Below, piece by piece: positions 1-58,033 of a DNA stretch of 64,000 nucleotides. The DNA is from Anaspis maculata (lineage: Eukaryota; Arthropoda; Insecta; Coleoptera; Scraptiidae): positions 69,747,416-69,811,415 of the forward strand of contig OX421966.1 of NCBI GenBank assembly GCA_949128115.1. The letters run 5' to 3'. Below the pieces are notes generated by a model. That model was given only the letters and a program-made list of their open reading frames with translations, did no database searches and had not been told where the DNA came from. Every line of letters begins with the position of its first letter. Position 1 is the stretch's first letter. The position numbers and the translations under genes were made by a program.

Positions 1-640
1 TCAGTCGTTCATAATCCGATAATACATCGTCGTAGTGTAGTTCGAGGAACTCTAGCATGCATGAAACTTTTTCATTAGATTTGAAACCAGCCAAAATCTG
101 TTTGAGAACTTTATACATAGAAACGTTCGAGTTCGATACATCGCTCGTTATTTTAAAGGAGCTTGATAATAAATCAGTATAAAATTTTTTAAAATTCATT
201 GATTCTAGAGCCTCTAATCTATAGCTAATGATATCTCTCATTCGTGCAATTTGTTGTAGAAAATTTTCATGCAGATAGACGGTCTGGGCCCTGCTATGTA
301 GATGTCCGATGCCTGCAGATGAACCCAATTTTAGAGTATAGTTCTCGAAAATTTTCATATCACCATTCGGAACGTTCGAAGTTGATGCAGTCGAAGAGGG
401 CAAGAGCTCTATTAATTCACTCCATTCCCGCATGGTGAAAGATATTCGGCTCGAATTTGCATGCGATATGATGATGATTGCTGGTGAGAGTCCTCTGGCG
501 ATGCTAAGCCCAACTCGTATCCTTGCAGCTGATCCGTTCAGAGTTGTTTGATATAGTAATTCGGTCTCTTGAACGATGGCTTCGTCATAATACCGTAACA
601 TTTTTTCGATAGACTGCCAGGGGCTGAACAAGGTGGGCAT
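1..640 (-). CDS. Polinton uncharacterised protein (remnant element, runs off left edge)
   Basis: The minus-strand frame opens at an ATG at 640 and stays open to the window edge, giving about 213 residues. It is clearly homologous to the 202-aa protein at 54,392-55,000. Both have a VGLSI segment in the N-terminal third, a W-E-I/L-E-pattern helix in the middle, and a C-terminal block beginning DII...RL followed by FY.DLL. It lies downstream of an integrase C-terminus (1,123-1,410) on the same strand, which is the same gene order as in E2. I do not recognise a known domain and infer an alpha-helical protein. The frame shows no stop in the visible part, although the neighbouring integrase is truncated. 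The last few codons are outside the window; the inverted copy at 2,077-2,233 suggests that only about seven residues are missing. Confidence 0.65.
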   Translation of the reverse strand, partial: MPTLFSPWQSIEKMLRYYDEAIVQETELLYQTTLNGSAARIRVGLSIARGLSPAIIIISHANSSRISFTMREWSELIELLPSSTASTSNVPNGDMKIFENYTLKLGSSAGIGHLHSRAQTVYLHENFLQQIARMRDIISYRLEALESMNFKKFYTDLLSSSFKITSDVSNSNVSMYKVLKQILAGFKSNEKVSCMLEFLELHYDDVLSDYERL

Positions 641-699
641 CTCTCTTTGTTTGACGTTGGTGCTGGCGATGCTATGAAGATGTTTACGATGCTTATAAT

Positions 700-1010
700 G
701 CTAGCTGCTTATCTCGATATGCCGGTGATGATCCTTACGTTGATATGACGATAGAGGTGATGATGCTTGCGATGATATGACGATAGCGAGGGTGATGAAT
801 ATGATAATATGACGTTGTTTTATGATGAAATGACGTTAGCGGTGATGATGCTTGTGATGATATGGCGATAGCGGTGATGATCCTTACGTTGATATGACGA
901 TAGAGATGATGATGCTTGCGATGATATGACGATAACAGTGATGATGCTTTATGATGATATGGAGTTGCTGGTGATGATATCACGTTGTTGGTGATGATGG
1001 CTACGTTGCT
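700..1010. repeat. GATGAT-rich minisatellite
   Basis: Degenerate tandem units built on GATGATGCTTGCGATGATAT and GACGATAG, roughly 60 bp each, repeat about five times. The open frame across it (735-983, minus) is a low-complexity product of the repeat and is not called as a gene. It lies between the remnant integrase and the following Polinton gene, where E2 has only about 200 bp of spacer. Confidence 0.7.
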
Positions 1011-1122
1011 TATGGCGATAGCGCCGATGGAGTTTATGACGGCTGTGATCGGGACGTTTTTGCTCCAGACACCTTATTTCACCGGCTCTCTGACGTTAAG
1101 TGTGATCGACGAGGTTGCTGGT

Positions 1123-1410
1123 TCAAACAACGTCTGCTCTCGCAATCCACCCTCGATCGGGCATGCCCAAATATTTAACGTAAAGCCTCGAACCGGTTTT
1201 TTTCAAAACTTTTTCCACCAGATAGATCTCGGGATGTTTAGTTTTCTGTAGTTCTCGTTCGTAAAAACATCCCATGATCGGCGAACCCTTTAGATCTTCA
1301 ATAAGATATGTAGGTGGATTGCTGTTCGGTTTCACTTGTCTGATGCGAAACAGCTCCGTCGTCCAGTTGGGGGTATAACCTTTTTCAAAAAGTACTTTGT
1401 ATTTACCCAG
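1123..1410 (-). pseudogene. Polinton integrase, C-terminal fragment
   Basis: The minus-strand translation carries the C-terminal chromodomain-like module of Polinton integrases. It has a GY.PNW.TE.F stretch, then a G.FY..EL segment, then KHPEIYLVEKVL and a final V.YLG....WI motif. The E2 integrase (53,638-54,186) has the same order of motifs (G-FYSSEL, KHPDAYLVERIL, VKWLG...SWI). The catalytic DDE core is absent: the similarity stops at about 1,410, where the 59-bp satellite begins. It is a truncated relic of a third Polinton in this window. Confidence 0.75.
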
Positions 1411-1429
1411 ACGCGCTAGCAGCCCATGC

Positions 1430-2076
1430 CGACTCGGCGCTTAAATGATTCTATTAATCTATCCATCTATAATATGCCTCATTAGATCAGCCGGCTGAAC
1501 CATGCCTAATTCCACATGGTCGTCGGTTAAAACATCACGAGCTGATTATGGCATGACGAGCTGCCAGTTAAATCATGACGTCACTGTTGACAGCTCATGC
1601 CGACTTATGGCATGACGCGCTGGTGGTTAAAGCATGACGTCACTGTTGACAGCTCATGCCGACTTATGGCATGACGCGGTGGTGGTTAAAGCATGACGTC
1701 ACTGTTGACAGCTCATGCCGACTTATGGCATGACGCGGTGGTGGTTAAAGCATGACGTCACTGCTGACAACTCATGCCGACTTATGGCATGACGTGCTGA
1801 TGGTTAAAGCATGACGCCACTGTTGGCAGCTCATGCCGACTTATGGCATGACGTGCTGATGGTTAAAGCATGACGCCACTGCTGGCAACTCATGCCGACT
1901 TATGGCATGACGTGCTGATGGTTAAAGCATGACGCCACTGCTGACAACTCATGCCGACTTATGGCATGACGTGCTGATGGTTAAAGCATGACGCCACTGC
2001 TGACAACTCATGCCGACTTAAGGCATGACGTGCTGCTGGTTAAAGCATGACGCCACTGCTGACAACTCATGCCGAC
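1430..2076. repeat. 59-bp satellite array with hairpin and CRE-like palindrome
   Basis: A unit containing CATGCCGACTTATGGCATG and GGTTAAAGCATGACGTCACT repeats with a period of 59 bp; the pattern shifts by one base per 60-base line. There are about nine copies from around 1,540, with degenerate units before that. Each unit can fold on CATGCC/GGCATG. The first copies contain the palindrome TGACGTCA, which becomes TGACGCCA in later copies. The array separates the integrase fragment from the inverted gene tail. Confidence 0.9.
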
Positions 2077-2233
2077 ATCGAACTCGAACGTTTCTATGTA
2101 TAAAGTTCTCAAACAGATTTTGGCTGGTTTCAAATCTAATGAAAAAGTTTCATGCATGCTAGAGTTCCTCGAACTACACTACGACGATGTATTATCGGAT
2201 TATGAACGACTGAAGACATGTATTAATTTTTGA
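2077..2233 (+). pseudogene. Inverted copy of the tail of the gene at 1-640
   Basis: Bases 2,077-2,213 are the reverse complement of bases 1-137 by direct reading. The copy continues past the left-edge limit to an in-frame TGA at 2,231-2,233. It begins abruptly at the end of the satellite array, so only the last 50 or so codons are present. The two copies form a large inverted repeat around the satellite. Confidence 0.85.
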
Positions 2234-4779
2234 ATAAAACTCTTGAAAAAAAGATTGCCTATTTTTTTTTTCAACGGCTACTGCTAATTAACGCATGCCG
2301 AACTGTCTCATACCTCACAACATCTTTACAGCTAAACCATGCGATTCCAGGTAAACGGTGCTCATTATGCTCATTCACAGCTGGGTTTATAAAAAAAAAA
2401 GCGAGTGCACTCGTAGTTTTCATTCAAGTGGCACTGCTTCCCACATGCTTTAGAAAGTGGTATAGAAGCCGTGTCGATGTGTTGCTATATGGTTTTTCCA
2501 AAGTGCTCGTAGAAATTTCTCCATACACCACCATCATATCATCATATTCCTCGAAACTATGATGGCACATATTTCTATAATATACCCCGAGCTTTGAGAG
2601 CATGAATTTTTTAAAGAGCAGGTAACCGGCCTTTAATTATTGTGAGAAATGACTGCAAATATTTTCGAACATGTGAATGAAAATTCTTAGAGTCTTGTTA
2701 GTACATAGATAGATACAATAAAATCTTTCATATCTAAGGTAAGGATAGGAGTATGGAACTGTTTAAAAATCTGAAATGAACAAAGCTGTAACCAATAACT
2801 AGTGCGTATTTTTATTTGCACAAACTTCTCCCATAGGTACATCCTGAAAGGGCCGAGTTAAGTATTAAGATGCACCATTCTGATACTACGCATATGGCTT
2901 GGTACATATTTGATCCGGAGATATTTGTAGCTTGAAGAGCACTCGTCAGCGGGTGGGCAATGCTGCAAAACTCTCTTGTTAATTTCTTCGGTCGCGCTAC
3001 CTACACTACTGGCTACCTCTCGTATTCATTCGTTCTTTCTCAACCTGGTAATCAAAGGGTATTTATTGAAAATTCAAGGTCGGTCAAGTAGAAAATTCTT
3101 ATAAAATGCTGGCTTGCTAGAGTCGTTTATATTAGGCCCTCAGGTACTTGAAAAATTTCAGTAGGCAGGTGTACTCAATGCAATCGATAATCGCTAACAT
3201 TTTAGGCTAATACCTTTGAGCATTGAAAAACATTAGGTATTTTTATGTAAATTTGTCCATATGTTAATAGTTTTTATTAAAACATCTTTCCAACACATTG
3301 AGCTCCTAAATACTTATATCTTTTATATTTTTTTATTTTCACATTGCCGTACTGGACTGACAAAATTCAGCGCTGATATTTTTCAAGTCGGAGCATTATG
3401 TGATAAGCACAAAGTAATTTTTAAATAAAGTTTCTATTTATATAATAATTATTGATTATCTGGTGGCTCCGTGGATATGTGCATATGATACTAAAAATTC
3501 CTGTTCAGACACGATCTTTCAGGTAAAAAATAAATAAATAGCTCAGGGCTTTTCAGGTAAGAAGTTACGAACAACCACCCAGTCGACAGGTGGTGGTGGT
3601 GGTGCGTTTGCATTCGTTATCTAGCAGCCTCATGGGTTGGTGCTGTGCCGTGTTTGTGTTTTTCGTGTAAGTTTAATTTTCACTATGTTTATGCGGACAA
3701 TTCATTTATTTAAGTACATATTCTTATGGAAACACATTACTATATGTACGGGTTATATTTAGAAAAAAATTTAACTTTCTTTTGACAAAAAAATTCTATT
3801 TCGATACAGGCCCCTGGTCGCTAGTTCCGGATTTTTGGAAACGACTGCAAAGCCGCGGCTCGCTGTATATTATACCTACCCCACGCAAAGCTAAGCCAAT
3901 TCCATCGATCTTTTTCAATGTAATGTCTCATGCTTTTGCAAAAAAAAAAAAAATCACCCACAGATTCGATGGTCAAACTTTATTGAAAAAAAAATCAATC
4001 TCTTGTTAAAACTCTGTGGAATGACTACAGTTGATGGAAAAAAGACTGGTTACGCGGATAAACAGTATAGATTGTTCAAATTCAAACTTATTACCACGGT
4101 TTACATGGTGGATATTGTCACGCCACTCACGACCTTAAGGGCCTTGCGACAATTAGCATGTTTTATTTTCAATAATTATGCTCCCGTAATACTGTCATAA
4201 CCTTATAAATTATAAGAAAAAAGGCCTTCAACCAATTACCTGTTGGTAAGAGCCGTTATTTTGGGTGCGACTTCTCAGGTAGTTGAAATGCATATACCTA
4301 CAAACAATAAGCCTCACGGTCGTGGAGGCATATTCACTCGTTCATTTTCCGTACCCCCCAACAATACTATGTCTTATGAAACTTGTATTATAATATCCTG
4401 TTAGACATAACATACAATTTTTGATTTTTTTTTTTTGTAGTACTCACCTGGAATGTTCTCATCACAACTACAATAACTAGAATTATACTGTCAACCTGAT
4501 CCAGTTACTGAATTCACACTATCAACGATTCTCTCTAAGAGCCAACAGTGGGCCCTTCGCCTTCCCAGCACCCGAGAATAGAAGTGATGTCGTTTGCAAA
4601 GTGAAAATAATAAAACTGAGCTATAAGAATTTCAAGCTACTCAATTTTGGCTCCATGAAGGAGTTAATTGTTGTCAATAATGATGATGATTCCAACAATT
4701 TGCCTCGCGACCGGCACATCAGAACTGCCGACCATCAAGTTGTCGTGTTAAGTGTACTTCGACTTTGGGTGAATGATGT
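2234..4779. other. Non-coding stretch, no gene supported
   Basis: A-T rich sequence with homopolymer runs, a short GGT run near 3,590 and scattered open frames of at most 110 codons. None of these frames shows a recognisable domain. I see no splice-linked coding pattern. Confidence 0.5.
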
Positions 4780-15302: not shown

Positions 15303-16073
15303 AGTAGAGAGAGAAGAGGGCGACTGAATCAAGTCTCATTACCTGTAATTACAGAGGAGGTAATTACGACGTCGGTAATTAGACCGGTCCTACCGCTCTA
15401 CAGTACACTCTTTAGGGTACGACGCCGGGTGCTATAGAGACGTGATATGGGTCAGGATCCTGAAACCGAGCTCATTAATTATTGAGGTAATTACTAGAGA
15501 GGTAATAACACCCTGAGAGTATGTGCACACCAGTTTTACCGTTGCGAGCTTGAACCCGCGGTTTACCTGGACCCTCGCTTTCCTCCTCCTCCTCCTCTTC
15601 ATGCCTACCGCTGCAGGTGCAAGCAGAGGCAGTGGTAGGTGAGCGTGCCAACACGCTTTCTCAGTCGAACCTTCGTCGTTTCCATTTGTTCTGCGGTTGA
15701 AGGAGCGAGATGGAGCGTACGGGTCGCGTTCCCTCCTCGTGTACATAGCTCCACCGATGCAAGCCTCTAGAGACAATGGCAGGTGCATGTGCCATCGTGT
15801 CTTCTCAGTCGAACCTCCTCCGACACCGTTTGCGCTATATTGGTAAGAGCGAGATGAAGCGCTGCCATCCTCTTAACACAGCTCGACCAAGCGCACAGCG
15901 GTAGGTCTTCTCCTCTCGCGCTCGGTTCTACCTGCTCTGCACGGCACAAAACCGCCGGATCGTGTTTTATGGCTGCTTCCAATCGAACATGCGAAGGAGT
16001 CACAAAGGTAGGTCCTTCGCAAGGTCCTGATGGTCGGAGGTCCTTGCACATATTGGGGGCATGAGCGCTGCAT

Positions 16074-16154
<81 letters not shown>

Positions 16155-17462
16155 CTATTTCGCTCCCACATCTCTGTCTATCATCCTATGCAGTGGTGGC
16201 CCGGCCAAACGCAGAGGTTTGAGAGAGAACCGTCTGCTGTGCTCTTACTTACCTACAGAGAGGCGCACAACGTTTTAAAAAAATTAGATGAGCTACCTAA
16301 TTTTTCTGAGATGAGGTACCTAATTTTTCTATTTGCTCGCGCTTCGGTGTACGGTTTCATTTATCGACGCTCACAACATGGGAACGAAGGGATGCACGAC
16401 GCTTTAAAAAAAAAAAAAACACTGAGAGGAGATACCTAATTTTTCTATATGACCGCTACGTCGCAATGTTTTAATCATAGCAAGGAGGGAGAATATGAAA
16501 TAGATAGCTCTTACTTACCTACAGAGAGGCGCACAACGTTTTAAAAAAATTAGATGAGGTACCTAATTTTTCTGAGATGAGGTACCTAATTTTTCTATTT
16601 GCTCGCTACGTCGGAATACATTATCCATAACAAATCGAGATGCTCTGGACAGATGAGCCGATACAAAACTAGCTGTTGTACTAAACATCATGATGTTTTT
16701 GATGGTAGGGGGTAATAGATACCTCGGTACATCATCTAGATATGTTTTAACCCAGTGATTTCGAGATAGCTAAATTAGTTTCGCATGACTAGGTACGGCC
16801 ATTTCTACCTTCTTCACAATTCAAAAATTCAAATATTCAAATCCAGTATCGGCATGATATCCCCTGCCAGAGGGTGGAGGGTAGGGAGCGGCGGGTGGCA
16901 ACCGGGATTGTTCGATAAGGTGAACGAAACTGATGGTTAGATATTACTCGTTTATGGTTTTGTAAATCGCCTAATTAAAGACCTTTTCTCGCAAGAGGAC
17001 CGTGGGAGATGGCCACTACCCACCTGCCTCCGAGCTATGCAGAGCGGCCGCATATACATGCCCGAATTATTAAGGGTCTTATAAAACGCAGTCTATCGCT
17101 GCAAGTGTTTTCGTCGAGTTTCTAAGGGTATCTGTGATGTAAGACCAGCCCTCCCTAACATCGTTTCCATGCTCCAGCATTCCTACATATGAATCTCCGA
17201 ATTAGGAAATTTTTATTGCTAGAGGACCGTGGGACTTAATTAAAACCTACCTGACCGTTCGATGTGCCAGAGGCGGTCAGGACGACGGAGGAAAAAAAAA
17301 ACCATTCTCCGACGTTAGCTGCCAGGCCACGAAGGAAATAATTTTTATCTTCGCGGGGGCCTGAAGGGTTGGACTCAGTAACACGGCGACCAATCGGGTT
17401 TAAACACAAAACCCTTTCTCTCGATATGCATATGGGAAAAACATCGTCCAGCAGGCGTTCGT
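15303..17462. repeat. E1 left terminal inverted repeat
   Basis: It pairs with 25,200-26,770 in inverse orientation. Bases 15,303-16,612 match 25,487-26,770, and bases 17,176-17,462 match 25,200-25,486. The stretch 16,613-17,175 has no partner in the right arm. It holds a (GA)n run at 16,076-16,154 and a repeated block of about 100 bp (near 16,240 and 16,506). Open frames such as 15,432-15,788 recur identically in the other arm but have no recognisable domain. Confidence 0.9.
16613..17175. other. Left-arm-only segment of the E1 terminal repeat
   Basis: This 563-bp stretch is present in the left terminal repeat and missing from the right, where the flanks are joined directly at about 25,486. 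It contains an AGAGGACCGTGGGA motif that also occurs in the shared part (17,220), so a deletion in the right arm between short matches is more likely than an insertion in the left. No gene is seen. Confidence 0.7.
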
Positions 17463-17665
17463 GATCTAGCAGGCGATCGGGCCCCAACCAATCAGATAAT
17501 TTTTCCCAAATTTCATGCATAGAAGGGATGGAGCGACTCGTCTGAAGGGTTAATCCGGAAATTTCATATAGCTAGTTTTCTACCGTACTCGCATCAGTAA
17601 AGTTCGGCTCTGAAATCCTCCCGGCTAAATTTTTTGCTAGTGAGTATCTTACATTTTAAAAAATA

Positions 17666-18010
17666 ATGGAATTAGTAAACCAGCTGAATAATATTGCGCG
17701 GGGTGCTGCTTATAAGCCTCTCATTAAGGCTAAAGAGCTAACAGTCGGAGAGTCCAATAAAATAATTGATATAAAAAGTGTGACGACACGGTACGGTGAA
17801 AGGCGTGTGTGTCATCTTGAAAACGTCCAATTCTTCTTGCCCACGCGGTTTAACGCGTTTTTCACACCGCAAAAAATTGCGGAAACGATCGAGCTGGATA
17901 TGTCGATCATATTCAGAGGCATGAAAGGCTCTGGAGCCATGGAGACGCCGGTCTTCGAATTTGCCTCAGCGCAAGGTGAGATAGCGATCTCTCGAAAGTA
18001 TGACACCTAG
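17666..18010 (+). CDS. Small E1 protein, OB-fold-like pattern (possible ssDNA-binding protein)
   Basis: This 114-aa frame lies just inside the left terminal repeat. After an N-terminal helix, a beta-rich pattern begins near residue 24 (KELTVGESNKI, then a short strand pair with TRYGERRVCHL). It continues with FFLPTRFNAFF at about 51-61 and a strand-rich C-terminus. This alternation of strands around an R-G turn and an LP-R segment resembles small OB-fold single-strand-binding proteins, which would suit a protein-primed polymerase element. The assignment is pattern-based inference only. No homologue is present in the visible part of E2. The start is the first ATG after a stop and follows an A/T-rich leader. 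Confidence 0.6.
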   Translation: MELVNQLNNIARGAAYKPLIKAKELTVGESNKIIDIKSVTTRYGERRVCHLENVQFFLPTRFNAFFTPQKIAETIELDMSIIFRGMKGSGAMETPVFEFASAQGEIAISRKYDT

Positions 18011-18049
18011 ATCATGTAATAACATTTTTTTTTATTCCAGTATAGAGAA

Positions 18050-18245
18050 GGTTGATCATCATTACCATCACCAGTATCATCATCACCATCGTCAATCATC
18101 ATCGTTATCAACCCCCCGATCATAGATGTTAACGTTCGCAATCGTCGTCTCATCTCCTTTTATCATCGTGATCATCGTCAAACATCATCACCATCAACCC
18201 GATCATAGATGCTAATGTTCGCATTCATCATCTCAACTCTTTCAT
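18050..18245. repeat. ATCATC/ACCATC-rich low-complexity stretch in E1
   Basis: Short imperfect runs of CATCATCACC and ATCATCGTCA lie between the 114-aa gene and the helical protein gene. A second-order duplication (CCCGATCATAGATG) is visible. It probably lies in untranslated sequence. Confidence 0.6.
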
Positions 18246-18413
18246 CATCGAACTAGGATCCCGAGAACTAGAAGAGTTCGCACCCTCCATACCTAAAGCA
18301 ATCGCTCTTTACTAAAGCAGATGTAAAAACATCACCCGCGAGCGAGCACAATCATCGTCAGGTCGATCCCTACGAGTCAAGTACTGTGGAGCTTCAATAC
18401 CATCTCTGCAAAC

Positions 18414-18479
18414 GTAAGCTATTTTCTCCTCAAAAATAATTTCAAATCATCCGCTAACTTGGCTTCTCTCTCTCATTAG
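18414..18479 (+). other. Predicted 5'-UTR intron of the E1 helical protein gene
   Basis: The stretch begins GTAAGC and ends CTCTCATTAG after a pyrimidine-rich tract, one base before the ATG at 18,481. It has good consensus at both ends and a typical short length (66 bp). Upstream exon limits are not known. Confidence 0.5.
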
Positions 18480-18480
18480 C

Positions 18481-18792
18481 ATGTGGCAACTTCGACGTGA
18501 TCCCCCAACAGACGTTAAAGAGAGTGTGAAGAGCATGCAACGGTACCTAGACGAAGAAGAGCTGGAGGCCGACAGGGCGCTGAACCGTGTATATTGTCCG
18601 GACAAGTTGGCAAGATACGAAAACCTTTCGAACACGGCTCGCGCGGGTGGAGAAATCTGTGAACGTTTCATACAATCACAGATTTCTCTGGATCATTTTT
18701 GCGAACTAATTCAAGATATAGGGCTGGGGCCCCGATTAAAGCGGCTTAGGCCGTTTATCAGCGAAGAGCTGTTGCAGAAATATTGCAACTAG
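18481..18792 (+). CDS. Small helical protein, member of a Polinton family (E1)
   Basis: This 103-aa, predicted all-alpha protein is similar to three E2 proteins (54,978-55,274; 59,483-59,833; 59,824-60,128). The shared pattern is an N-terminal VKE.V helix and a DAL/RAL.R helix, then a G-E-x-C segment (here GGEICERFIQSQISL, about residues 60-74). An L..LI..I.L helix and a terminal PFI.E segment follow. Size and helix count (five to six in about 90 residues) fit the death-fold superfamily (CARD/DED), but I see no diagnostic residue and this is inference. The start follows the predicted UTR intron directly. Confidence 0.7.
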   Translation: MWQLRRDPPTDVKESVKSMQRYLDEEELEADRALNRVYCPDKLARYENLSNTARAGGEICERFIQSQISLDHFCELIQDIGLGPRLKRLRPFISEELLQKYCN

Positions 18793-18849
18793 TGTCCCCG
18801 GCGCAGGATATTTCTACAGCATTATTGTACCCGAACCTGTTAAATTAGA

Positions 18850-19488
18850 TAAGTTTATAATGTAATATCATATTTTTCAATAGTCAAATTCATCCATATT
18901 TAGGTTAGCCTAATTAGAGCATAGCAGTGCTGATGATTTTAATTTTAATGATAATGTAATGATGGTAATGATGGAATAAAAATGAGAAAAAAATTCTTGC
19001 ATTTTCAATAAAAAAGAAAAAACTTTTCATCATATGAATCGTAAAAGCATGGATATGAGATTTTAGAAACAGTCTCAAAATAAGATATAAAAAAAAAACC
19101 CCCGCTGGATGTGGGAATATAGGAAAAAATATTTAACCAATGGCAGGAGAGCCATCCCCCCGGTCCGGCACATCTGTGCAGGTATACGACCAATGGATGC
19201 GTCTTGCAAATTTAGAGATTTTAATTTCAGGAGGGGGTGGTTTTGCCATATAGCATCGAGCGGAATTTCTTCGATCCAGTTCACCGTCAAACCTTGCAAA
19301 GTTTCGTTCAGTGTTTTCTCGACTTTTAAGCAGAAAAAAAAAAAGATGTGTTCGAGCGGTCCTTCCCAGGAAAACCGGCACATTGGGTGCGAAATTAACG
19401 GTATGTTTTCACTTAATTTAAAATCTATCCGGGGTCATATCATATCCGGAGACTCGATACGAGCTTCTAGATCGCTCTATTTATTGTT
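18850..19488. other. E1 internal stretch, no gene supported
   Basis: A/T-rich from 18,800 to 19,100, with a possible AATAAA at about 18,975. Frames on both strands at 19,075-19,480 give up to 153 codons with a CR/CP-type cysteine pair, but no domain is convincing. This could hold a decayed gene or the 5' exon of the following gene. Confidence 0.35.
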
Positions 19489-19980
19489 ATGTCCATTAAA
19501 ACAGCTGAGGAATCGTGGGATGCTGAGGACTCCCCCACATATGTACCAAGAAGTGGGCCAGGCCTCGTGAGATTGCTCCCCCCACGTCTCGTAGAAGCTC
19601 TGAAGAAATCGTGGCGAGACAGTGAACGCACCCGTCAGCATGAATGCCCAGCAGGATCGGGAGAGTATCCCGACAGCCGGCCGGCGCATGAGCTCGAAGG
19701 CTCACCTATCGAGGAAGTTGGGAGCAGTGGTATGTAAATAATCATAGCATTATTAATTCTCCTCGCTACCCTAATTTTTTCTCATCACTAAAAAACAGGA
19801 AACAAGGATCCCGAGTCCTGGGATGCTGAGGACTCCCCGTCATACATCCCTAAACCGCGGCACGGGATTATCCGACAACCTCCGCCGCGGATGACGAAAG
19901 CTCAGAAAAAAAAATGGCGTGCCCAGGAACGTATCTGGCAACAGCAACCAGCATCCAGCGTGCGTCATGAACATGAATAA
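19489..19980 (+). CDS. W-EDS family protein with internal duplication (E1, two exons)
   Basis: The predicted exons are 19,489-19,729 and 19,799-19,980, joined across a 69-bp intron (GTATGT...AACAG). Phase is preserved and the product is 140 aa. Each exon encodes one copy of the same module: ESWDAEDSP, then Y(V/I)P.., then a PPR stretch and a K-rich W-R helix. E2 has a single-copy relative at 48,250-48,662 (CWSEDS, TYTPQP, IPPRI), and its intron lies at the same place, directly before the module. I recognise no known domain. Basic residues after PPR suggest nucleic-acid or protein binding, but nothing firmer can be said. Exon 1 could extend upstream. Confidence 0.65.
19730..19798 (+). other. 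Intron in the E1 W-EDS gene
   Basis: It starts GTATGT, ends CTAAAAAACAG, is 69 bp long, and preserves the frame. An in-frame TAA directly after the donor supports splicing. Confidence 0.6.
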
Positions 19981-19989
19981 ATATAGGTT

Positions 19990-20644
19990 AGCAGAGCATT
20001 TATTTTAATTAGATTTGTATTTTTTTTGAGGTTAATAAAATCGTATTAAGAACCTATCGCAGCACTGCTTTCATCCAGGGCTTCCTAGCTAATCATAGTA
20101 ATCTCTCTCTCCGACGAATTTTTGCGATCCATGATCGTATGATATAGAAAACTCTATATCTTAGAGAAAATCTTTATCCGGAAAAATAGAGTTCCGGGTT
20201 ATGTGGTGATCGGCCGTCTACGATGCAGCTCTGCTAAGAGAAATATTCATATCGGTATCTGGTATAAACAAAACAAACACAAGGTTGGTTCCATAATATT
20301 TTTATTACTAAAAAGTTCTGAAAATTGTCGGAATAGTGAATATATATTCACTATTATATTATTTCTAGCTCTTATTCTAAAACACTGGACTCGAATATAA
20401 TGCACTCTATTAAATTTTAGCTGAATTACATGCTTTGGTTTATGCGGTGATAGTATTTATAAAGCATATGCGCGTATTACACTTCCTGGCTATAAACAAT
20501 TCAAAAACATGAACTCGATTAGCGACACACAGTGTTTTGGCATGATAATTACGTACTATGATTTGCATTTTAAACAATGTGAACGTGTAAGATATCTTCA
20601 GGGTGATTTTATTAACGGGAAAGCTGGGAAGATGCTGTAGGTAG
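19990..20644. other. E1 stretch between convergent genes
   Basis: AATAAAA at about 20,034 could serve the W-EDS gene. The remaining sequence holds only short frames without domains and is followed by the polymerase stop codon. Confidence 0.4.
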
Positions 20645-23600
20645 TTAACGAGTGGATTCTAACATGAGTTCCTCATCATCGTAACACTCGATTAAATGAT
20701 CGTCATATTCGATTTCGGGGCGACTGTCTGACGAGAGCACGCAATTCCCCAGACTCACTGTTTCATAGCTATTTCTCACAAGACATCGTTTATCATCAAA
20801 ATGCGAAAGTGCGATTTTTCTCTGTAAATTCGTATAAACTGTGTGTAATTCCGAACGGAATGACTGCATATTACGATGGATTAATCGTCCCTTTATAGCT
20901 GCTGCTTCATCATAATCATCTTTTGAGAGTTCTTTCTCAATCACACACTTCTTCACCCCTTTCGCTCGCTTCATTAAATTGTCTCCGGTATCGACTAGGT
21001 ACGCTTTAGCACCTGTTCCCACATAGCTATGGATATTCCCCGCTGGGATTTCGTTTTTAAAAAGGCCTATGGTAGGTTTTCCCGGTATGATATTATGTAT
21101 ATTCCCTGGTAAATAATTTGACGTATCGTATTTTCCTGGCTCAAGTCGCATGTCTTCATAAAAGTTCGGAGTTTCAATTTTGAGAATAAACGAGTCGGTA
21201 TCCATATATAGCAGACGTGCTTTTGGACCATATTTTTTCTTGATATGATTATAGAAAAAATCATACATGATATACTTCGAGATCTCCAAAATCACAAACC
21301 CTGCATATATGGGTTTATCGTAAATAATTTTACCCTTATGCATCTCAATCGCCGCAAAGTTTTCGCTGAAAATTGCAACGTTTTTGAAATTCGGCTTGGC
21401 AATTAAAGTACCCGCGCCGAGTTTGCGCCCCAAATTTTCCCAATGGGTTGCAAGTCGTATGTCCGACTTGTTTTCGACATTTTCCAAAGATTTCCCATAA
21501 TTCGCGTTTATTTGCAGCTTATAATAATCCTTCTCCGTTTTGGAGGTTGCGGAGCTTCTTTTCTCGCTGTTTAGATCGATGTATGATTTCATCCATGGCT
21601 TCTGCCTGAATTTCAAAACTCTATGAATTTTCCCCAGCGTCAACCCGTTTTTCAACGCCTGCTGCAGGTTCATATAGTAAATGACATATTTTTTTTTATC
21701 AAATAGATTCGTGATCAGCTTTTGGTGGTTAGATTTCGAATTGGCGGGGGTGATTTTCTCAACGCAGAACGGTAGTTCATCGTGCTCTGGATGTAAATAA
21801 TGAGGTACAATGAGATCTAGTTCAAAGATATATCCGATCTCTTGCTCGAATTTGAAGCCCATAATTGTTTCAACAGTTATTTCGGAGATATCATCCATAA
21901 AGCAGAACCCTGCGTAAGGCAAGGAATATGACATCGTTGCTCCGTACAGGCTAGTTACATCTAAATAAATTATGTAGGACGTTGGCAATTCCGGATTGTA
22001 ATTATCCATAAATTTATTGTTGGCCTCCGCTCTGCGAACATTACACTGACATATTCCGCCCCGTATTCCTTTTTTGATGAACGCTAGGATGTCGACATCC
22101 GTTATCAGCTCTAGCTCCACACCTGTGTATTTCATCATTGCATCCCATGAAAAAGACGGTGCTGTGAGATAGTGACACGGGTCCAGCTCATAGGTTTCTA
22201 GCGAAATTTTGCGGAGCTCTTCAAAAACATCTGTTAAAATGAGGCAGTCGCTTTTTAAATATAATGTACTGTAGTCTGCGAGAGTCTTACATTTAAAGTG
22301 TATCCAAAATTCTTGAGCTCTTGAATAATCGGCGTCGGAAATATCTTCCATGATCAGCTCATTATAAAACTCTGATTTGCTCGGCAGCGATGTCTGAGAT
22401 AATTTCTCGAATGATGTAATGTAATTATAGGGGAATACACCCTTCTGCCTAATAAGTTTGAACGCGGGTTCGCTTGGGAAATATTTCCGAACATCCACAC
22501 ATTGCTCATCATTCAAATTTTGCGCGAGTTTATCTAGTGATGCCGAGAGGAATCGAAATGAGTCTATAAATCTCAACTCCATTTTAATAGCTCTTCCCTC
22601 GATCGTATCGACTTTTATGAATTTTGAAAAACTTATATAGGTCTCTTTTGTCGAACCTATGGCTTTGATTTCGCTCCCAAACCCTGCGAGCTCACGCATG
22701 AAGAGATGAGCGTCATATTTACTCAAATTATGGCATATAACCGGAATGAATTTCGGGATTTGAAAATTCAAGTTGCATCGTTGGTGGGCCGGTGCTATAT
22801 AATTCCCTGTTAAATGGCAGTGGTCCCGAACTCTTATATCATCAACTCGGAACGGTTTCCTGCAAATATGACAATCTTCTGCGCGATTGAATGCTAAATC
22901 CTGCTCTGGTGTTAAAGGTTTCATCGGAACTATATTTTTATAGTGCTCGTTATATATTCTGACGACGTCCGCCTCCAACGATTCTACAAAAACCGCGGAA
23001 CAATCTCTCCCGAGATATGTTCTGTAGTCGCTCAAGCTCTCGTCAAATGAACATTTGATATTATAGCCGAAACTATATGGGATATGTATTGACTTTCGCA
23101 GCGTGAATGAGTCAGTTTCCTCGGGCAGACAAGTATCGAAAGGTAGTAAAATACTTTCAAAATCCATATAAATCACAAAAGGCGTTTTGTATTTTTTCCA
23201 GGGTTTTTCGAATTTCAATATATTTCTCGGCACCATATCCCCATATAGATCCTTCTTTTCACCAATAGGAAGCTCGGTTATGATTTTAAAACAACCGTTT
23301 TCTACATGAGCGTCGAGTTTCGATTGAGTATAAAAATGTGAAATGCAAGAGTCGCAAACGAATTTGCGTTCCTTTCTTTTCGATACCTGCATACCCACAA
23401 GCTTAGAGAGGTTCTTAATGAGACAATAGTGCGAAACACCGTTTTTTTCAAACAAGAGGAGGTTTATATGACACGCACGTCTACAGCCCGTGTGGTACAG
23501 CGGCCCAATCAATTCGTGTCTGCCGTTCCTATCCTCTAAACCGAAAACGTTTATCGAAATCGTAGGATTCTGTCGTTCAAACTGTCTTATCTGCTTAAGT

Positions 23601-24929
23601 TTCACGGGGAATTCAATGCCTTTACAGTTGAGTTCGCTTTTAAATTGTTTATAATGCCTCACCCTATTCGGAGACTTGGTCGTACTGTGTGTGAAAGCCA
23701 GCACGCTCCACAAAAAACAGAGATTATCATTAGACCTGACGTTCACACACGCATGTTTTGTCTCGATCTCTCTAGGTAGCTTGATGTATGACGATCCTCG
23801 GATTGGTACGTATCGAGAAATGTCCAGCTCCATATGCGAGCAGGTAATCAGAGCCCAGCCTGAAATTAAGAAGGAGCAGGATAAGCACAACATTCAACAT
23901 TCGGTGCATGGTGTAAAAATAGGCAGAATATATATGTTTTTTATATTTACCACTATCTTTTACTTCGAAATTCCACATTTCCACGACGATATCGGCGAGA
24001 AGAGATTTGATTAGCGCATCTAGGTCTGTGCTGGAGTAGACATTTTTTGATTTCAGGTTATGACATTTGAGATCCACATTATTCGAAGTCTGATTGATAT
24101 ACTTTGCAAGGAGCGAGAGATTTATTTTTATACTCCCGTGAACGTTTAGCTCACGTTCCAAAAGCTCGCGAAGTTTGACGATGCTTTTCTCAAAAAATGT
24201 TTTGTAAATATCCCCGCTTTCATTATCTATGCGGTATGAAATAATCCTGTTTTTGAAGCATGTATTGATCACATGACAACCATCTTTCAGAGGGGTGAGA
24301 GATCCTTCTTTGTGCATGGTTGTACGAATATGACTTGCAAATGATTTCAGAGGTACTGTGATATTACACGTGCCACAATGTCTAAATAGCACGGCTCTTT
24401 CCACGTTTCCATCGGCTATCGAATCATTGGAACGTTTCCCGCTCGGCGGGGTCATACTTCGAAGATCTGGTTGAGTTTTCCCATCACTTCCGGGCAGCCT
24501 CTGTGGTGCAGGTGTTTTGCGGCACGCTGTCGACATCGTCTGCGTCAAAGCAGGTATTGTCGGATGGGTTCCTTGTTCCGTGTGTTGTACCCGAAGCGGT
24601 GATTGATACGCCATCGATGATAAAGGCATTGGTATCGACGATTGCGAAGGCTGGTGTGCTGTTTCAAGTATCGCGGCCGCCGACTTCGTCGAGGACAATT
24701 GAAATGGTACAGCCGTGGTTCTCGTTTGGCGATCCCTCTCGTGGTATTTCGATATAGCACCTGCGGCGAGAAGCTCACTCCTTTGCGCCCCACATAACGG
24801 CAGCTGTACGATCTTGACTGGTGTACGATCGGTTTTATTCGCATCCTGCTTCTTGGAACACGTTTTCATGTGTCGTTTTAAATTATCACCCCTCGTGAAA
24901 GTTTTCCGACAGCGCTCGCATCGTATCAT
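20645..24929 (-). CDS. Protein-primed type B DNA polymerase of E1 (spliced)
   Basis: Predicted exons on the minus strand are 24,929-23,951 and 23,859-20,645, joined across a 91-bp intron (GTAAAT...TTTCAG), for about 1,397 aa. The N-terminus has a C2H2-type finger (CERCRKTF...H..TC) and a basic, low-complexity region. A second CxxC...H..C finger follows near residues 495-516. Exonuclease motifs are MDFES (D at about 559), CHNLSKYDAHLF and YLKSDCLILTD. Polymerase motifs are A (DVTSLYGATMSYSLP), B (QINANYGK) and C (YMDTDS, about 1,211). No internal stop is seen, so it may be functional. The gene is convergent with the plus-strand E1 genes. A possible 3' splice site just upstream of the ATG suggests a further 5' exon. 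Confidence 0.88.
23860..23950 (-). other. Intron in the E1 DNA polymerase gene
   Basis: On the minus strand it begins GTAAATATAAAAAAC and ends CTTAATTTCAG. Joining restores a continuous DSG-WAL stretch that is conserved in Polinton polymerases; the unspliced frame runs into non-homologous sequence. Without splicing, the zinc-finger half and the catalytic half lie in different frames. Confidence 0.75.
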
Positions 24930-25199
24930 TTTTCTGATTCTGTGGAAAAAAATAGATCCTGATATTATAAAGTCTAAGTTGATGGTGAAATTAGCACAAG
25001 GCATATCCTGATTATACCATAATTGAAATATGTACTTACGTTTGAAAATTATCACACCTTCCGATCAACGGGAAAACTCTATACGAAATTTCCGTTTCAG
25101 TCCTTCAAACCAACCCGCGACCCACCCCTCCCACCTCTTTCTGACGATGGAATTTAAAATAAACTGTGCGACTGTATAGATCTCGAGCGACTACACCGC

Positions 25200-25942
25200 G
25201 TACGCCTGCTGGACGATGTTTTTCCCATATGCATATCGAGAGAAAGGGGTATGATTAAACCCGATTGGTCGCCGTGTTACTGAGTCCAACCCTTCAGGCC
25301 CCCGCGAAGATAAAAATTATTTCCTTCGTGGCCTGGGAGCTAACGTCGGAGAGTGGATTTTTTTTTTCCTCCGTCGTCCTGACCGCCTCTGGCACATCGA
25401 ACGGTCAGGTAGGTTTTAATTAAGTCCCACGGTCCTCTAGCAATAAAAATTTCCTAATTCGGAGATTCATATGCAGGAATGCTGTGACGTAGCGAGCAAA
25501 TAGAAAAATTAGGTACCTCATCTCAGAAAAATTAGGTACCTCATCTAATTTTTTTAAAACGTTGTGCGCCTCTCTGTAGGTAAGTAAGAGCTATCTATTT
25601 CATATTCTCCCTCCTTGCTATGATTAAAACATTGCGACGTAGCGGTCATATAGAAAAATTAGGTATCTCCTCTCAGTGTTTTTTTTTTTTTAAAGCGTCG
25701 TGCATCCCTTCGTTCCCATGTTGTGAGCGTCGATAAATGAAACCGTACACCGAAGCGCGAGCAAATAGAAAAATTAGGTACCTCATCTCAGAAAAATTAG
25801 GTAGCTCATCTAATTTTTTTAAAACGTTGTGCGCCTCTCTGTAGGTAAGTAAGAGCACAGCAGACGGTTCTCTCTCAAACCTCTGCGTTTGGCCGGGCCA
25901 CCACTGCATAGGATGATAGACAGAGATGTGGGAGCGAAATAG

Positions 25943-25999
<57 letters not shown>

Positions 26000-26770
26000 A
26001 TGCAGCGCTCATGCCCCCAATATGTGCAAGGACCTCCGACCATCAGGACCTTGCGAAGGACCTACCTTTGTGACTCCTTCGCATGTTCGATTGGAAGCAG
26101 CCATAAAACACGATCCGGCGGTTTTGTGCCGTGCAGAGCAGGTAGAACCGAGCGCGAGAGGAGAAGACCTACCGCTGTGCGCTTGGTCGAGCTGTGTTAA
26201 GAGGATGGCAGCGCTTCATCTCGCTCTTACCAATATAGCGCAAACGGTGTCGGAGGAGGTTCGACTGAGAAGACACGATGGCACATGCACCTGCCATTGT
26301 CTCTAGAGGCTTGCATCGGTGGAGCTATGTACACGAGGAGGGAACGCGACCCGTACGCTCCATCTCGCTCCTTCAACCGCAGAACAAATGGAAACGACGA
26401 AGGTTCGACTGAGAAAGCGTGTTGGCACGCTCACCTACCACTGCCTCTGCTTGCACCTGCAGCGGTAGGCATGAAGAGGAGGAGGAGGAGGAAAGCGAGG
26501 GTCCAGGTAAACCGCGGGTTCAAGCTCGCAACGGTAAAACTGGTGTGCACATACTCTCAGGGTGTTATTACCTCTCTAGTAATTACCTCAATAATTAATG
26601 AGCTCGGTTTCAGGATCCTGACCCATATCACGTCTCTATAGCACCCGGCGTCGTACCCTAAAGAGTGTACTGTAGAGCGGTAGGACCGGTCTAATTACCG
26701 ACGTCGTAATTACCTCCTCTGTAATTACAGGTAATGAGACTTGATTCAGTCGCCCTCTTCTCTCTCTACT
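25200..26770. repeat. E1 right terminal inverted repeat
   Basis: This is the inverse of 15,303-17,462 without the 563-bp left-only segment. The terminal 130 bases match the left end base for base by eye, and frames of 118 and 77 codons are the same in both arms. The (CT)n run at 25,943-25,998 is shorter than the left (GA)n run. Near-identity suggests recent insertion or arm-to-arm conversion. Confidence 0.9.
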
Positions 26771-48249: not shown

Positions 48250-48662
48250 ATGTCAACCGAAACGAACAAAGTTTCTACTCCAGTGTCGGATTCTATCCCA
48301 CAACACTCTGAAGGAACAATAGATGAAACGCCAAAAAAGCTAACTGCTCGAAAAATGACTCATCATCATTTGAATTTTGATTCTGATGCGGAAGGTAAGC
48401 GAAATGTAATTTTGAAGAAAGCATAATTTGATATTGTTGTATTTTCCAAGAACAATCTGGTGATGAAGAATGCTGGAGCGAGGACAGCTTTGACACCTAC
48501 ACCCCACAACCAAATTTGCGGATAATCCGTAAAATTCCTCCCAGGATTGCAAAGAAGCAGAAGCTGAGGAAACTCTTCCAAGAAGAGCAGATGGCTCTTC
48601 ACCGTCTATTTCTGGAGCTCAATAATTTGCTTTCAGTAAAAATACGTCAAGCATTGGAATGA
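48250..48662 (+). CDS. W-EDS family protein (E2, two exons)
   Basis: Exons 48,250-48,394 and 48,451-48,662 join across a 56-bp intron (GTAAGC...TTTTCCAAG) to give 118 aa. Exon 1 is polar and S/T/E-rich. Exon 2 carries ECWSEDS, TYTPQP and IIRKIPPRI, then a K/R-rich helix and a leucine-rich C-terminus. It aligns with both repeats of the E1 gene at 19,489-19,980, and the intron lies at the same point just before the W-EDS module. It is the first gene of E2. The function is unknown. Conservation in two otherwise different elements argues for a real role. Confidence 0.7.
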
Positions 48663-48777
48663 ATTGTTGAAAAAATAAAATAACTATTCGGAATCTGTCT
48701 TTTTATATACACCTTATTTCAACCTGAAAATCACATATAAATATAAAAAACACCAAGAATTTCACTTAGTTGAGAAT

Positions 48778-49470
48778 ATGAAACTGGAAAAGCAAAAGCA
48801 CGCACTGCCTGTTACAAACTATGATGAGGTTGTTTCAGATATGCAAAATTTCTACACGCACGGTGCGTTATTGAGAGGTTGCAAACGGGGTTTGATAGTT
48901 GGCGGAAGCGGTTGCGGTAAAACAAATTTGATGTTGAGTTTGTTAGAGCACCCGAATGGCTTGCGATTTCGAAATATTTATTTATACTGCAAAACCCTTC
49001 TCCAACCAAAATATTTACACTTGAAAAAAATTCTAAAACCAATCAAAGAAATCGGATTTTTTGAATTTCAAGATGGAGCAGACGTCATACCACCAAATCA
49101 AGCAAATGAGAATTCAGTTATAATTTTTGATGATGTTATATCTTGCAATCAAAATATTATCAGAGACTACTTTAGTTTTGGCAGACATAGAAATATTGAT
49201 TGTTTCTATTTAGCACAAACATATTCCTCAATACCAAAGCAATTGGTGAGAGACAATGCAAATTTTCTAATCCTTTCCAAACAAGACACATTGAATTTGG
49301 ATCACATATTAAACAATCATGTCGCACCGGACATGAGCAGAGAACAATTCAGAGATATTTGTGCACAGTGTTGGCGGGAACCTCACGGCTTTTTAACGAT
49401 AGACAAAGATTCACCTATAAATAACGGGAGATACCGCAGAGGACTTGATTGTTTTATAACAGACATCTAA
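48778..49470 (+). CDS. FtsK/HerA-type genome-packaging ATPase (A32-like)
   Basis: This 230-aa protein has Walker A GGSGCGKT at residues 42-49 and Walker B VIIFDDV at 114-120. A following polar motif region (AQTYSSIPKQL, about 153-163) is typical of the packaging ATPases of Polintons, adintoviruses and large DNA viruses. It would pump the element's DNA into capsids. The length is normal for the family. No stop or frame shift is seen. The gene is on the plus strand, followed 18 bp later by the next frame, in the same direction as the integrase. Confidence 0.92.
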   Translation: MKLEKQKHALPVTNYDEVVSDMQNFYTHGALLRGCKRGLIVGGSGCGKTNLMLSLLEHPNGLRFRNIYLYCKTLLQPKYLHLKKILKPIKEIGFFEFQDGADVIPPNQANENSVIIFDDVISCNQNIIRDYFSFGRHRNIDCFYLAQTYSSIPKQLVRDNANFLILSKQDTLNLDHILNNHVAPDMSREQFRDICAQCWREPHGFLTIDKDSPINNGRYRRGLDCFITDI

Positions 49471-49488
49471 GAAGCAAGATCATTACCA

Positions 49489-50499
49489 ATGAATGAACGG
49501 ATAGCACGACAGTTGATTAAGAGCCGAGCGGCCGTCAGAAAGAAACTTGAAGGTTTACGCTCTGATATAACCCGTATGAGTTTTGAACGTGAAAAAAATT
49601 TGGCACCTATCACAAAACCGTTGAAGGATTTATTGAGTAATATCAAATCAGAAGTGAAAACCCCTCCAACCCCCATAAAAAATGAAATAAAAAATGAAAT
49701 AAAAAGTGAAATTAGTTACAAAGAAAAGTTCCCCGGTCGCAAAAGTGCTCCTTCATTCTCGGAAGATGTTTTTACCAACGATGATGATGATGATGCTGTT
49801 GGCAGCGATATGGAAACTCAGGAAGATGATCAATATGTGTCATTGCATGAAATATCCAAACATGAAGAAGTAATGAATGAATATTTAGAGCAGTATAGTG
49901 GTTTAGCTAAAGAATATATCAGGAATATGATTGGAGATACTGAAAATCAATTTGATCATCAATATGGAATTCGACTAGATCGCTCTACAGAAAAATTCTC
50001 TATTGGTAACAAAATAGTACAGTTTATTGGTGATGATGTTAAAATTGATGGTGTGACATATAAAGGAACACCCGGTCTGTATGAGTTCCTTTTTAAGAAG
50101 GAACCTGGAAACTATACACTCGAAGACGAAAGAAATTATAAAGCAATTATGGAAGTCTCTAGTGCGGCAAGACAACACTATGATCCTACACATCGCCTAG
50201 CCGGAAACGGTGGAAGAAAGTATTCCATAGTAAAACGAATTTTATCTCAACCAGACATGACACCACGACGTTTCACAACACCCACATCTCTAAACAAACG
50301 CTCACGTACCAAGTCAGGTGCAGGAGCATTTCTTCATTTGAATAATAAAGAAGTAGAATTCATCCCATGGAAAAACCCGAATAAATTGGTCAACAGATTG
50401 AGATTGCTGATTGCTGCACAGCACGCTGGCAATACAGCAGTGGATAATGAAATATTACATATAGTGCAAGAACTCAAACAATCACGCATTATAAAATGA
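49489..50499 (+). CDS. DUF8207-like Polinton protein
   Basis: This 336-aa protein has an N-terminal coiled-coil-like basic helix (about 1-40), then a K-N-E repeated segment (KNEIKNEIKSEI). An acidic linker with a DDDDD run follows, and then the conserved core. The core includes a GTPGLYEFLFKKEP segment, YTLEDERNYK, and a basic Y.P.HR segment before the C-terminus. This core pattern is common in insect Polinton-type elements next to ATPase and integrase, and I match it from memory to DUF8207. The role is unknown; a structural or DNA-binding part is plausible. The frame is intact. Confidence 0.6.
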   Translation: MNERIARQLIKSRAAVRKKLEGLRSDITRMSFEREKNLAPITKPLKDLLSNIKSEVKTPPTPIKNEIKNEIKSEISYKEKFPGRKSAPSFSEDVFTNDDDDDAVGSDMETQEDDQYVSLHEISKHEEVMNEYLEQYSGLAKEYIRNMIGDTENQFDHQYGIRLDRSTEKFSIGNKIVQFIGDDVKIDGVTYKGTPGLYEFLFKKEPGNYTLEDERNYKAIMEVSSAARQHYDPTHRLAGNGGRKYSIVKRILSQPDMTPRRFTTPTSLNKRSRTKSGAGAFLHLNNKEVEFIPWKNPNKLVNRLRLLIAAQHAGNTAVDNEILHIVQELKQSRIIK

Positions 50500-50543
50500 A
50501 GTGAAAGCTCAATCAACACGCAGTTATATCAGAGACAGTTAAC

Positions 50544-54186: not shown

Positions 54187-54391
54187 TTTGAATAAATATT
54201 TTTTTTTAACAAAGCTGTTTTAATTGAAATAAGGAAAGAGAGTTCACTAAACTTGTATGATTACCTTGAAAATGTGGGAGGGAGGGGGGAGCAAACTTGA
54301 CCTTGAGCTATAACAAGTCCTCAAATAGGGAGGTATGGTGGGGGAAAGTCGATATAATGGCGAATGGGATTAGATAGGTTTAGTTCTCATC

Positions 54392-55274: not shown

Positions 55275-55369
55275 ATGAATTGAAAAAGAATCTTTATTTG
55301 TTTATTTACACAAAGTTTCCCGCAATGAGTGAATAAATCCTTATATTATTGTAAACTAGGAACAGTGCA

Positions 55370-58023: not shown

Positions 58024-58033
58024 CTGACAAGAT

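Follow-up and report, generated by a model that had tools for sequence, protein, structure and literature searches.

The 64,000-bp stretch of DNA analysed here (the window) holds a short, recent Polinton-type insertion, E1, and part of a second element, E2 (Table 1). The first-pass annotation had described E1 as a young element that carries its own polymerase, has long terminal repeats and is flanked by a perfect 6-bp CACTTG duplication, and our analysis confirmed each of these points. A 6-bp target duplication is typical of Polintons. The two arms had been said to look identical where compared, which is nearly true for their outer 828 bp, where a single position differs. It does not hold for the full arms, which are unequal in length (2,168 and 1,580 bp; of 1,579 aligned positions 11 are mismatched, and the alignment has 590 gap columns). 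The outer part of the left arm recurs nearly unchanged in two further types of element, named B and C below, while its inner part is diverged.

Table 1. Features of the window (positions counted from its first nucleotide).
Feature	Positions	Strand	Remark
E1 (A segment)	15303..26770		11,468 bp between the CACTTG copies
Left target-site duplication, CACTTG	15297..15302		matches 26771-26776
Right target-site duplication, CACTTG	26771..26776		matches 15297-15302
E1 left terminal inverted repeat	15303..17470	+	arm alignment; comparison with B and C
E1 right terminal inverted repeat	25191..26770	-	arm alignment
A-specific ORF ("OB-like")	17666..18010	+	ORF of 116 aa; 114 aa from Met
Helical protein	18481..18792	+	homologs in E2 (59507-59764) and at locus L065
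W-EDS protein	19489..19980	+	motif spread over ORFs 19471-19737 and 19792-19980; homolog in E2 at 48462-48584
polB exon 2	20645..23859	-	exonuclease and polymerase parts, EndoVII/HNH-like insert
polB predicted GT-AG intron	23860..23950	-	91 bp; spliced join yields SGW, a motif often found in insect PolBs
polB exon 1	23951..24929	-	N-terminal C2H2 finger; probable terminal-protein region
E2, comparator Polinton	48441..64000		continues beyond the window end
Rearranged C-segment piece	1..2624		96-98% identical to the C copies retrieved; contains an inversion around 2077

The largest gene of E1 encodes a PolB of 1,397 aa, joined from two predicted exons, with the sequences DVTSLYG, NANYG and YMDTDS, which we take to be polymerase motifs. 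It matches the DNA polymerase family phrog_1907 (E = 3.8e-17). Its nearest public relative is 60% identical over 98% of the query. We found 1,374 public homologs at E<=1e-5; there were insect proteins among the 120 best of these, and beetle proteins were frequent among the named best matches. Judging from these relatives, the enzyme is probably of the protein-primed class. The two ORFs of the W-EDS protein, read by eye, are probably two exons. The OB label given earlier to the 116-aa ORF found no support. There was no homolog at E<=0.01 (just three candidates had shared words with it) and no Pfam family, and the single-sequence structure model, with a mean pLDDT of 35, was useless for judging the fold. 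By eye, a splice-donor-like AG|GTGAG lies near the end of this ORF, and the actual protein may therefore extend beyond it.

No integrase, ATPase or capsid gene was matched by Pfam in the six E1 ORFs scanned, five ORFs had no match in NCBIfam, and no protease gene was detected. When the proteins of B and E2 were searched against E1 with tblastn, homologs were found solely for the W-EDS (3.4e-7) and helical (4.5e-5) proteins; no other protein scored below 0.11, the value for BIR, and the putative minor capsid protein reached 0.12, the ATPase 0.43 and the integrase 0.59. Neither search revealed a hidden integrase. The integrase for E1, and any capsid, must come from elsewhere.

E2 is organised differently. 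A single stretch carries W-EDS, ATPase, integrase, x239, PLA2, MCP, mCP, protease, BIR, helical, x188 and PolB (60997-63993) genes, with the integrase interrupted by a nested element (51131-53427). Homologs of genes from both the A and the B set are present in it. Four other PolB loci of the genome (L064-L067) were read for 3 kb beside polB, and all four had virion-type or integrase genes there: integrase in two, MCP/mCP in one and protease/PLA2/BIR in one. A further family, with a PolB at 60%, is present in several copies with near-identical scores.

We searched the whole genome with the 33-base end of E1, allowing up to 2 mismatches, and obtained 256 copies (128 forward and 128 reverse; a control pattern gave 0). 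Among the first 100 termini listed, 47 pairs had exact termini, and we typed every one of them; the genome has about 128 pairs in total. Six were E1-like and carried polB (type A), 14 were type B and 27 type C; most were typed from short reads, 26 by 150 bp, 5 by 2 kb and 6 by PolB position. None of the 47 joined polB with capsid or integrase genes on one element, no complete helper with the E1 termini was among them, and within the set a polymerase was recognised on A alone. At least 90% identical E1-type polB loci numbered 21 in the genome, and we fetched eight A loci, E1 included. We rejected the idea that E1 is a unique internal deletion, given the six exact-terminus A pairs and the 21 polB loci; the first-pass annotation was right that the layout is a distinct one. 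The layout recurs in an older A copy (PolB 90%), which shows signs of constraint, with dN/dS values of 0.14 (the A-specific ORF), 0.35, 0.56 and 0.23 against the E1 ORFs; few changes underlie these values and those for W-EDS are weak. The elements inserted separately: all 13 insertions checked (3 A, 6 B, 4 C) have perfect 6-bp duplications, each different. An exact capsid marker of B was found at 48 sites, the nearest E1-type polB locus (of the 21) on the same contig being 749,913 bp away.

B elements are 12.0-12.3 kb long and carry genes for a packaging ATPase, PLA2, capsid and integrase, with no E1-type polB. The matches are to DJR-like_dom (E = 2.8e-64), rve (1.7e-14) and Phospholip_A2_4 (2.7e-11), and the ATPase reached Pox_A32 at 8.7e-5, just under the family cut-off. 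By inference, B also encodes a maturation protease. Long ORFs for every gene checked were kept in all six fully read copies. PolB had no match in 20 B/C pieces or in the six fully read B copies, and a Pfam scan of ten B ORFs recognised no replication protein. One B ORF (B_100) runs antisense to a 399-aa protein. Copies with the E1 terminus that carry capsid and integrase genes, named beforehand as evidence against the first reading of E1, thus do exist, but none of the 14 typed has an E1-type polB inside.

C, the commonest type, lacks a polymerase, a capsid gene and a whole integrase. It carries a helix-turn-helix (HTH) protein, whose long ORF joins an HTH-like N-terminus to a region that is paralogous to a B protein but has diverged far from it (23% over about 310 aa, E = 8e-8). 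No homolog of the C protein was found at E<=1e-3 among 7,995 candidates scored, and its one match in PDB had an E-value of 0.24. Three of the four C copies that were read completely retain all or nearly all of the B gene x239. C has a remnant of the integrase tail, and its inner repeats are 99% like those of B in two of the four, the copies being mosaic further in.

Since the fetched elements had been chosen for 100% identity in the outer 398 bp, identity in that part is a product of selection, and the comparison was redone outside it. In terminal columns 399-750 the mean number of differences was 0.48 for A-A, 2.12 for A-B, 0.29 for A-C, 3.03 for B-B, 1.83 for B-C and 0 for C-C pairs. A, B and C have common ends and amplified recently. 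Farther inward A is 82-88% identical to the x239-side arm of B; with the ATPase-side arm it has just short inner pieces in common.

These elements are separate and their gene sets complementary, and we consider it probable that they form a multipartite Polinton. E1 would be its polymerase segment (A), B would package and integrate, and C would be either a third segment or a satellite. Segment A would provide a protein-primed DNA polymerase; segment B would provide the integrase, packaging ATPase, capsid proteins and, presumably, the maturation protease. The A polymerase would initiate at the termini of all three types, and the integrase and packaging machinery of B would act on the same ends. 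Since the outer termini are common to A and B, both could serve all segments. Every element would insert independently and make its own 6-bp duplication, and C, as a B-related element with the HTH/B-protein fusion, would be mobilised likewise. Cross-complementation, packaging and the upkeep of the set as one unit are what we infer from this arrangement. Complementary genes on separate molecules with common ends were found in integrated copies, in the 47 typed of about 128 pairs.

The first-pass annotation had taken E1 for a satellite that replicates itself and is integrated and packaged by full Polintons. The part that stands is the integrase from elsewhere; the same-ended helper that we found is B, which is not a full Polinton. 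The genome does have Polintons that join polB and integrase, and unrelated full ones could be helpers of A, for instance E2 or the family with the 60% PolB and its several near-identical-score copies. We regard this as very improbable, because B has integrase and capsid genes between A's own termini and, lacking a polymerase, needs one itself. The dependence would be mutual, since A in turn lacks integrase and capsid. As A copies are repeated and the capsid and integrase sit on a polB-free B, E1 is apparently one half of a divided genome, the half that replicates it, and no satellite in the usual sense.

Alternatively, A, B and C could be separate internal deletions of one same-ended, unsplit Polinton that is rare, extinct or outside the assembly and drove their amplification. 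In relatives within this genome polB does lie next to genes for integrase, capsid or other virion proteins, C is evidently derived from B (integrase tail remnant, x239, the 99% inner repeats), and published models reportedly treat deletion pairs as a route to multipartite genomes. Nevertheless, no such parent turned up among the 47 pairs typed. The A and B genes are intact and complementary, and the A-specific ORF and the constrained older A copy of the same layout are not expected of debris. We therefore find this origin unlikely; an unsplit parent could be among the remaining 81 or so pairs, exist as an episome or occur in other individuals.

Within the multipartite reading, we give even odds to a variant in which C is just a satellite of the A+B pair and the functional genome is bipartite; this variant is compatible with the main reading. 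In its favour, C elements outnumber the others (27 of 47) and have none of the polymerase, capsid or whole integrase genes; on the other hand, it keeps its long HTH/B-paralogue ORF, and x239 persists in most fully read copies. It is somewhat doubtful, yet plausible, that all three are stably kept as the segments of a tripartite dsDNA virus or transposon that is active and integrates in an insect. The A polymerase would then copy every segment, B capsids would package it and the B integrase would reinsert it; continual exchange of terminal repeats would keep the segments compatible, and the C HTH protein would regulate or aid packaging.

How genomes come to be divided among molecules is a long-standing question, mostly studied in RNA and ssDNA viruses. 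If the tripartite reading is true, this genome is a natural experiment on a DNA virus genome becoming segmented. Since each integrated copy records one segment, a single genome allows comparison of how many segments there are, how termini are exchanged, how selection acts on each segment and what unsplit relatives look like. Polinton copies with only polB or only capsid genes may have been misfiled as broken although they are working segments. We know of no earlier multipartite Polinton, and a tripartite set would be the first. A search of the open-access literature, with subscription journals largely outside its scope, found no segmented or bipartite Polinton among the papers listed; "bipartite" in PMC12220804 is a network-analysis term. 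No species besides this one was found with the A/B split, and IMG/VR held no relative of the A PolB and no exact terminus.

Polintons/Mavericks are described, in the excerpts of PMC4028283, as large elements (15-20 kb) that have the genes for this protein set. Like them, A and B together have a pPolB, rve integrase, A32-type ATPase, DJR capsid and long terminal inverted repeats, and the repeats and the 6-bp duplication are found in A, B and C alike. Here, in contrast, the set is divided over separate 10-12-kb elements with common ends: E1 has neither an integrase nor a DJR capsid and packaging ATPase alongside its polymerase, all of these being on B. Polinton-like viruses and Tlr elements resemble B in their DJR capsid lineage and, according to the excerpted text of PMC11071308, mostly lack pPolB, but each of these elements has its own gene for another replication protein, and none was recognised in B. 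Bracoviruses and other polydnaviriforms are, in partial accounts, dsDNA viruses with segmented genomes, proviral in insect genomes as here; unlike here, they form domesticated, replication-deficient particles, and their packaged DNA is circular (excerpts of PMC12567637). The segmented densovirus of Acheta domesticus (AdSDV) is likewise, from excerpts, a bipartite genome in a normally monopartite type of insect DNA virus, but it is an ssDNA parvovirus with unrelated genes. In Bidnaviridae (Bombyx mori bidensovirus) there are also two linear segments with a conserved terminal structure, a Polinton-derived PolB on one of them and an insect host. The excerpts of PMC4061559 describe these viruses as ssDNA, with a parvovirus-derived capsid and separate capsids per segment, and do not mention an integrase. 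The elements of A. maculata differ from them in their chromosomal insertions, their rve integrase gene and a capsid gene that is DJR-like and not of the parvovirus type.

E1, a Polinton-type element in the 757.8-Mb assembly of Anaspis maculata, carries the same 6-bp duplication on both flanks, as the first-pass annotation had reported. The window that contains it is C6:69747416-69811415. The arms (2,168 and 1,580 bp) were described there as looking identical where compared. Their outer 828 bp have 1 differing position; the whole arms are unequal in length and in alignment (1,579 positions) have 11 mismatches and 590 gap columns. Between them lies a two-exon polB of 1,397 aa that matches the DNA polymerase profile (E 3.8e-17). 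At E<=1e-5 it has 1,374 homologs, and names of beetles and other insects occur in the 120 listed. The interior also holds an orphan ORF of 116 aa, the W-EDS ORFs and a gene for a helical protein. We looked for integrase, capsid, ATPase, protease and PLA2 genes in E1 and detected none, and the reported lack of the first four is thereby confirmed. An endonuclease VII/HNH-like zinc motif is found in the PolB. In a comparison of 12 insect-type PolBs, none of its three cysteines varies and the DH is almost as constant; several relatives have a precomputed PF02945 match, while the match in E1's own PolB is below cut-off. The insert may have resolvase or nicking activity. Around E1, M13 peptidase exons occur in three similar gene copies, probably host genes.

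Features of the window and of related loci (L043 and L065, same genome)
Feature	Position	Strand	Remark
Minisatellite, 59 bp, in a C piece	1487-2135		
M13 peptidase exons, copy 1	8233-10910		
E1	15303-26770		11,468 bp; CACTTG on both flanks
PolB residues 333-375, zinc motif	20645-23893	-	C..C...DHCHLTG...C
M13 peptidase exons, copy 2	28767-31843		
Inverted repeat	39928-41139		574 nt, 64 nt between arms, 89% complementary
M13 peptidase exons, copy 3	41545-44618		
E2, comparator Polinton	48441-64000		runs off the window
Inverted-repeat element nested in E2	51131-53427		~2.3 kb
BIR domain gene of E2	59040-59480	-	E 1.8e-19
Minisatellite, 59 bp, in C	L043 ~3716-4541		
BIR domain gene of the 47%-PolB locus	L065 894-1169	-	

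E1 is not a unique internal deletion, a possibility that had been raised for it. Searching the genome with its PolB gave at least 49 matches (43 of 352 candidates scored), merged into 42 loci. Twenty-one are at least 90% identical to E1; three of these are partial, one is divided between two ORFs, and the full-length ones number 17, of which 14 are free of stops. Eight loci of this polB segment type (A) were fetched, E1 among them. At ~99-100%, the remaining seven align colinearly with E1 across most or all of 6.2 kb, and in two of them a ~390-bp end piece at 96-97% overlaps the remainder, reflecting a local rearrangement within the W-EDS part. An older copy at C3:5752483 (PolB 90% to E1, three stops) has the same gene order, namely left repeat, 116-aa ORF, helical protein, W-EDS and polB, and the A layout is thus older than the present burst. 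Between this copy and E1, dN/dS is 0.14 for the 116-aa ORF (8 synonymous, 4 other changes), 0.35 for the whole open frame of the helical protein, and 0.56 and 0.23 for W-EDS parts; two non-coding stretches are 7-10% different. The comparison shows apparent constraint on the A genes, weakest on W-EDS.

Searching with 398 bp of the E1 terminus gave at least 40 matches (40 scored of 365 candidates), all at 100%, many of them paired ~10-12 kb apart with no E1-type polB between. A 33-base terminal pattern (up to 2 mismatches) has 128 forward and 128 reverse sites in the genome, and a control pattern 0. The first 100 sites in the list, every one exact and all but a few on contigs C1-C6, yielded 47 pairs and 6 single ends. 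We typed the pairs from halves (10), 2-kb pieces (5), 150-bp midpoint reads (26) or PolB position (6). Six are A (11,432-12,042 bp), 14 are of a capsid/integrase type, B (12,009-12,318 bp), and 27 of a helix-turn-helix type, C (9,817-13,968 bp), a count over 47 of about 128 pairs. None of the 47 was found to have both gene sets, and none reaches 15 kb. One pair outside the 47, C7:61774598-61786696, contains the B marker described below. Perfect 6-bp duplications, differing between insertions, flank all 13 insertions checked, so A, B and C each insert as a unit. Full Polintons had been proposed as helpers for E1; same-terminus elements with capsid and integrase do exist, but the B elements found are not full Polintons, and the 14 typed show no E1-type polB match within them.

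Ten genes have long ORFs of expected length in the six fully read B copies. B encodes a DJR major capsid protein (E 2.8e-64), an rve integrase (E 1.7e-14; 315 aa in five copies, 331 aa in one), a PLA2-domain protein (E 2.7e-11) and an A32-type ATPase (E 8.7e-5, just under its cut-off). A protease-like ORF without Pfam match was named from its motif and its homology to E2. The putative minor capsid protein, with no Pfam family, was assigned by position and homology. A 399-aa protein, both halves open in all six copies, is a homolog of the E2 342-aa protein; ORF B_100, antisense to its gene, was left out of the gene count. The labels of the small ORFs x188, x239, fib1 and fib2 imply no function. 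Seven public insect PolBs and that of E1 had no match at E<=0.01 in 20 B and C pieces. A 36-base marker from the B capsid gene (3 mismatches allowed) has 48 sites in the genome, all exact, and the shortest distance to an E1-type polB on the same contig is 749,913 bp. A PolB of 55% identity and a marker are 24,855 bp apart (C2:120173333 and C2:120198188), probably as neighbouring insertions, and another marker has a PolB of 47% at 50,175 bp; chance alone would give 0.13 pairs at 25 kb or less.

C retains an integrase tail remnant and the x239 gene of B, whole or nearly so in three of four fully read copies and broken in the fourth. The N-terminal part of its 465-aa ORF is a helix-turn-helix whose transposase-type matches are weak and miss the cut-off (HTH_SB 6.6e-4); fused to it is a diverged paralogue of the 399-aa protein of B (23% over ~310 aa, E 8e-8). 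The copy number of a 59-bp minisatellite (L043, L060, L061) varies between insertions; the window's own C piece has it as well.

Elements entered the terminus comparison by being 100% identical throughout their outer 398 bp, so this part shows no more than that A, B and C can all carry it. We therefore took 27 arms (7 A, 12 B, 8 C) and compared their columns 399-750 (352). The differences averaged 0.48 (A-A), 3.03 (B-B) and 0 (C-C) within types and 0.29 (A-C), 2.12 (A-B) and 1.83 (B-C) between them, inside the within-type range. Further in, the B x239-side arm matches the A left arm at 82-83% over ~660 bp and the right arm at 88% over ~270 bp; the ATPase-side arm has only short pieces in common with A (85-127 bp, 91-98%). 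The C copies are mosaics, with inner repeats 99% like B's in two of four and 93-95% in one; those of the remaining copy are closer to A's (96%) than to B's (86%). The ends seem to have been exchanged or re-copied between types, which is expected if the types replicate together.

Homologs of genes from both sets stand in one stretch in E2: W-EDS, ATPase, 342-aa protein, integrase, x239, PLA2, major and minor capsid proteins, protease, helical protein, x188 and PolB. The termini of E2 were not located. A nested element interrupts its integrase gene, and E2 is therefore not an intact copy. We also read 3 kb beside four further PolBs (60, 54, 53 and 47% to E1); the relatives' gene content rests on E2 and these four, with the 57-58% and 55% PolB families outside the sample. 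Two loci (L064, L067) have an integrase within 3 kb, 66% to B's; L066 has both capsid genes, the major one 57% to B's; and L065 has protease, PLA2, BIR, helical and x188 genes. The BIR (inhibitor-of-apoptosis) gene also occurs in E2 and was not seen in E1. Loci closer to E1 by PolB also exceed E2 (integrase 46%, capsid 28% to B's) in the similarity of their integrase or capsid to B's, which agrees with A and B having a common origin.

By analogy with the roles of these protein families in Polintons and viral relatives, the A polymerase would use protein priming to copy every molecule that has the shared ends, the B ATPase and capsid proteins would package such molecules into hypothetical particles, and the B integrase would insert them. 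By its gene families the A/B/C set is a Polinton. PMC4028283 describes Polintons as large transposons of 15-20 kb that encode pPolB, integrase, ATPase and protease, and from these the set departs in organisation. No segmented Polinton appeared among the papers listed in searches of the open-access literature. Closest to the set in its proposed mode of working are the bipartite bidnaviruses; PMC4061559 traces their PolB to Polintons and proposes an origin of their second segment from the first. The A/B/C set differs from them by its DJR capsid and integrase.
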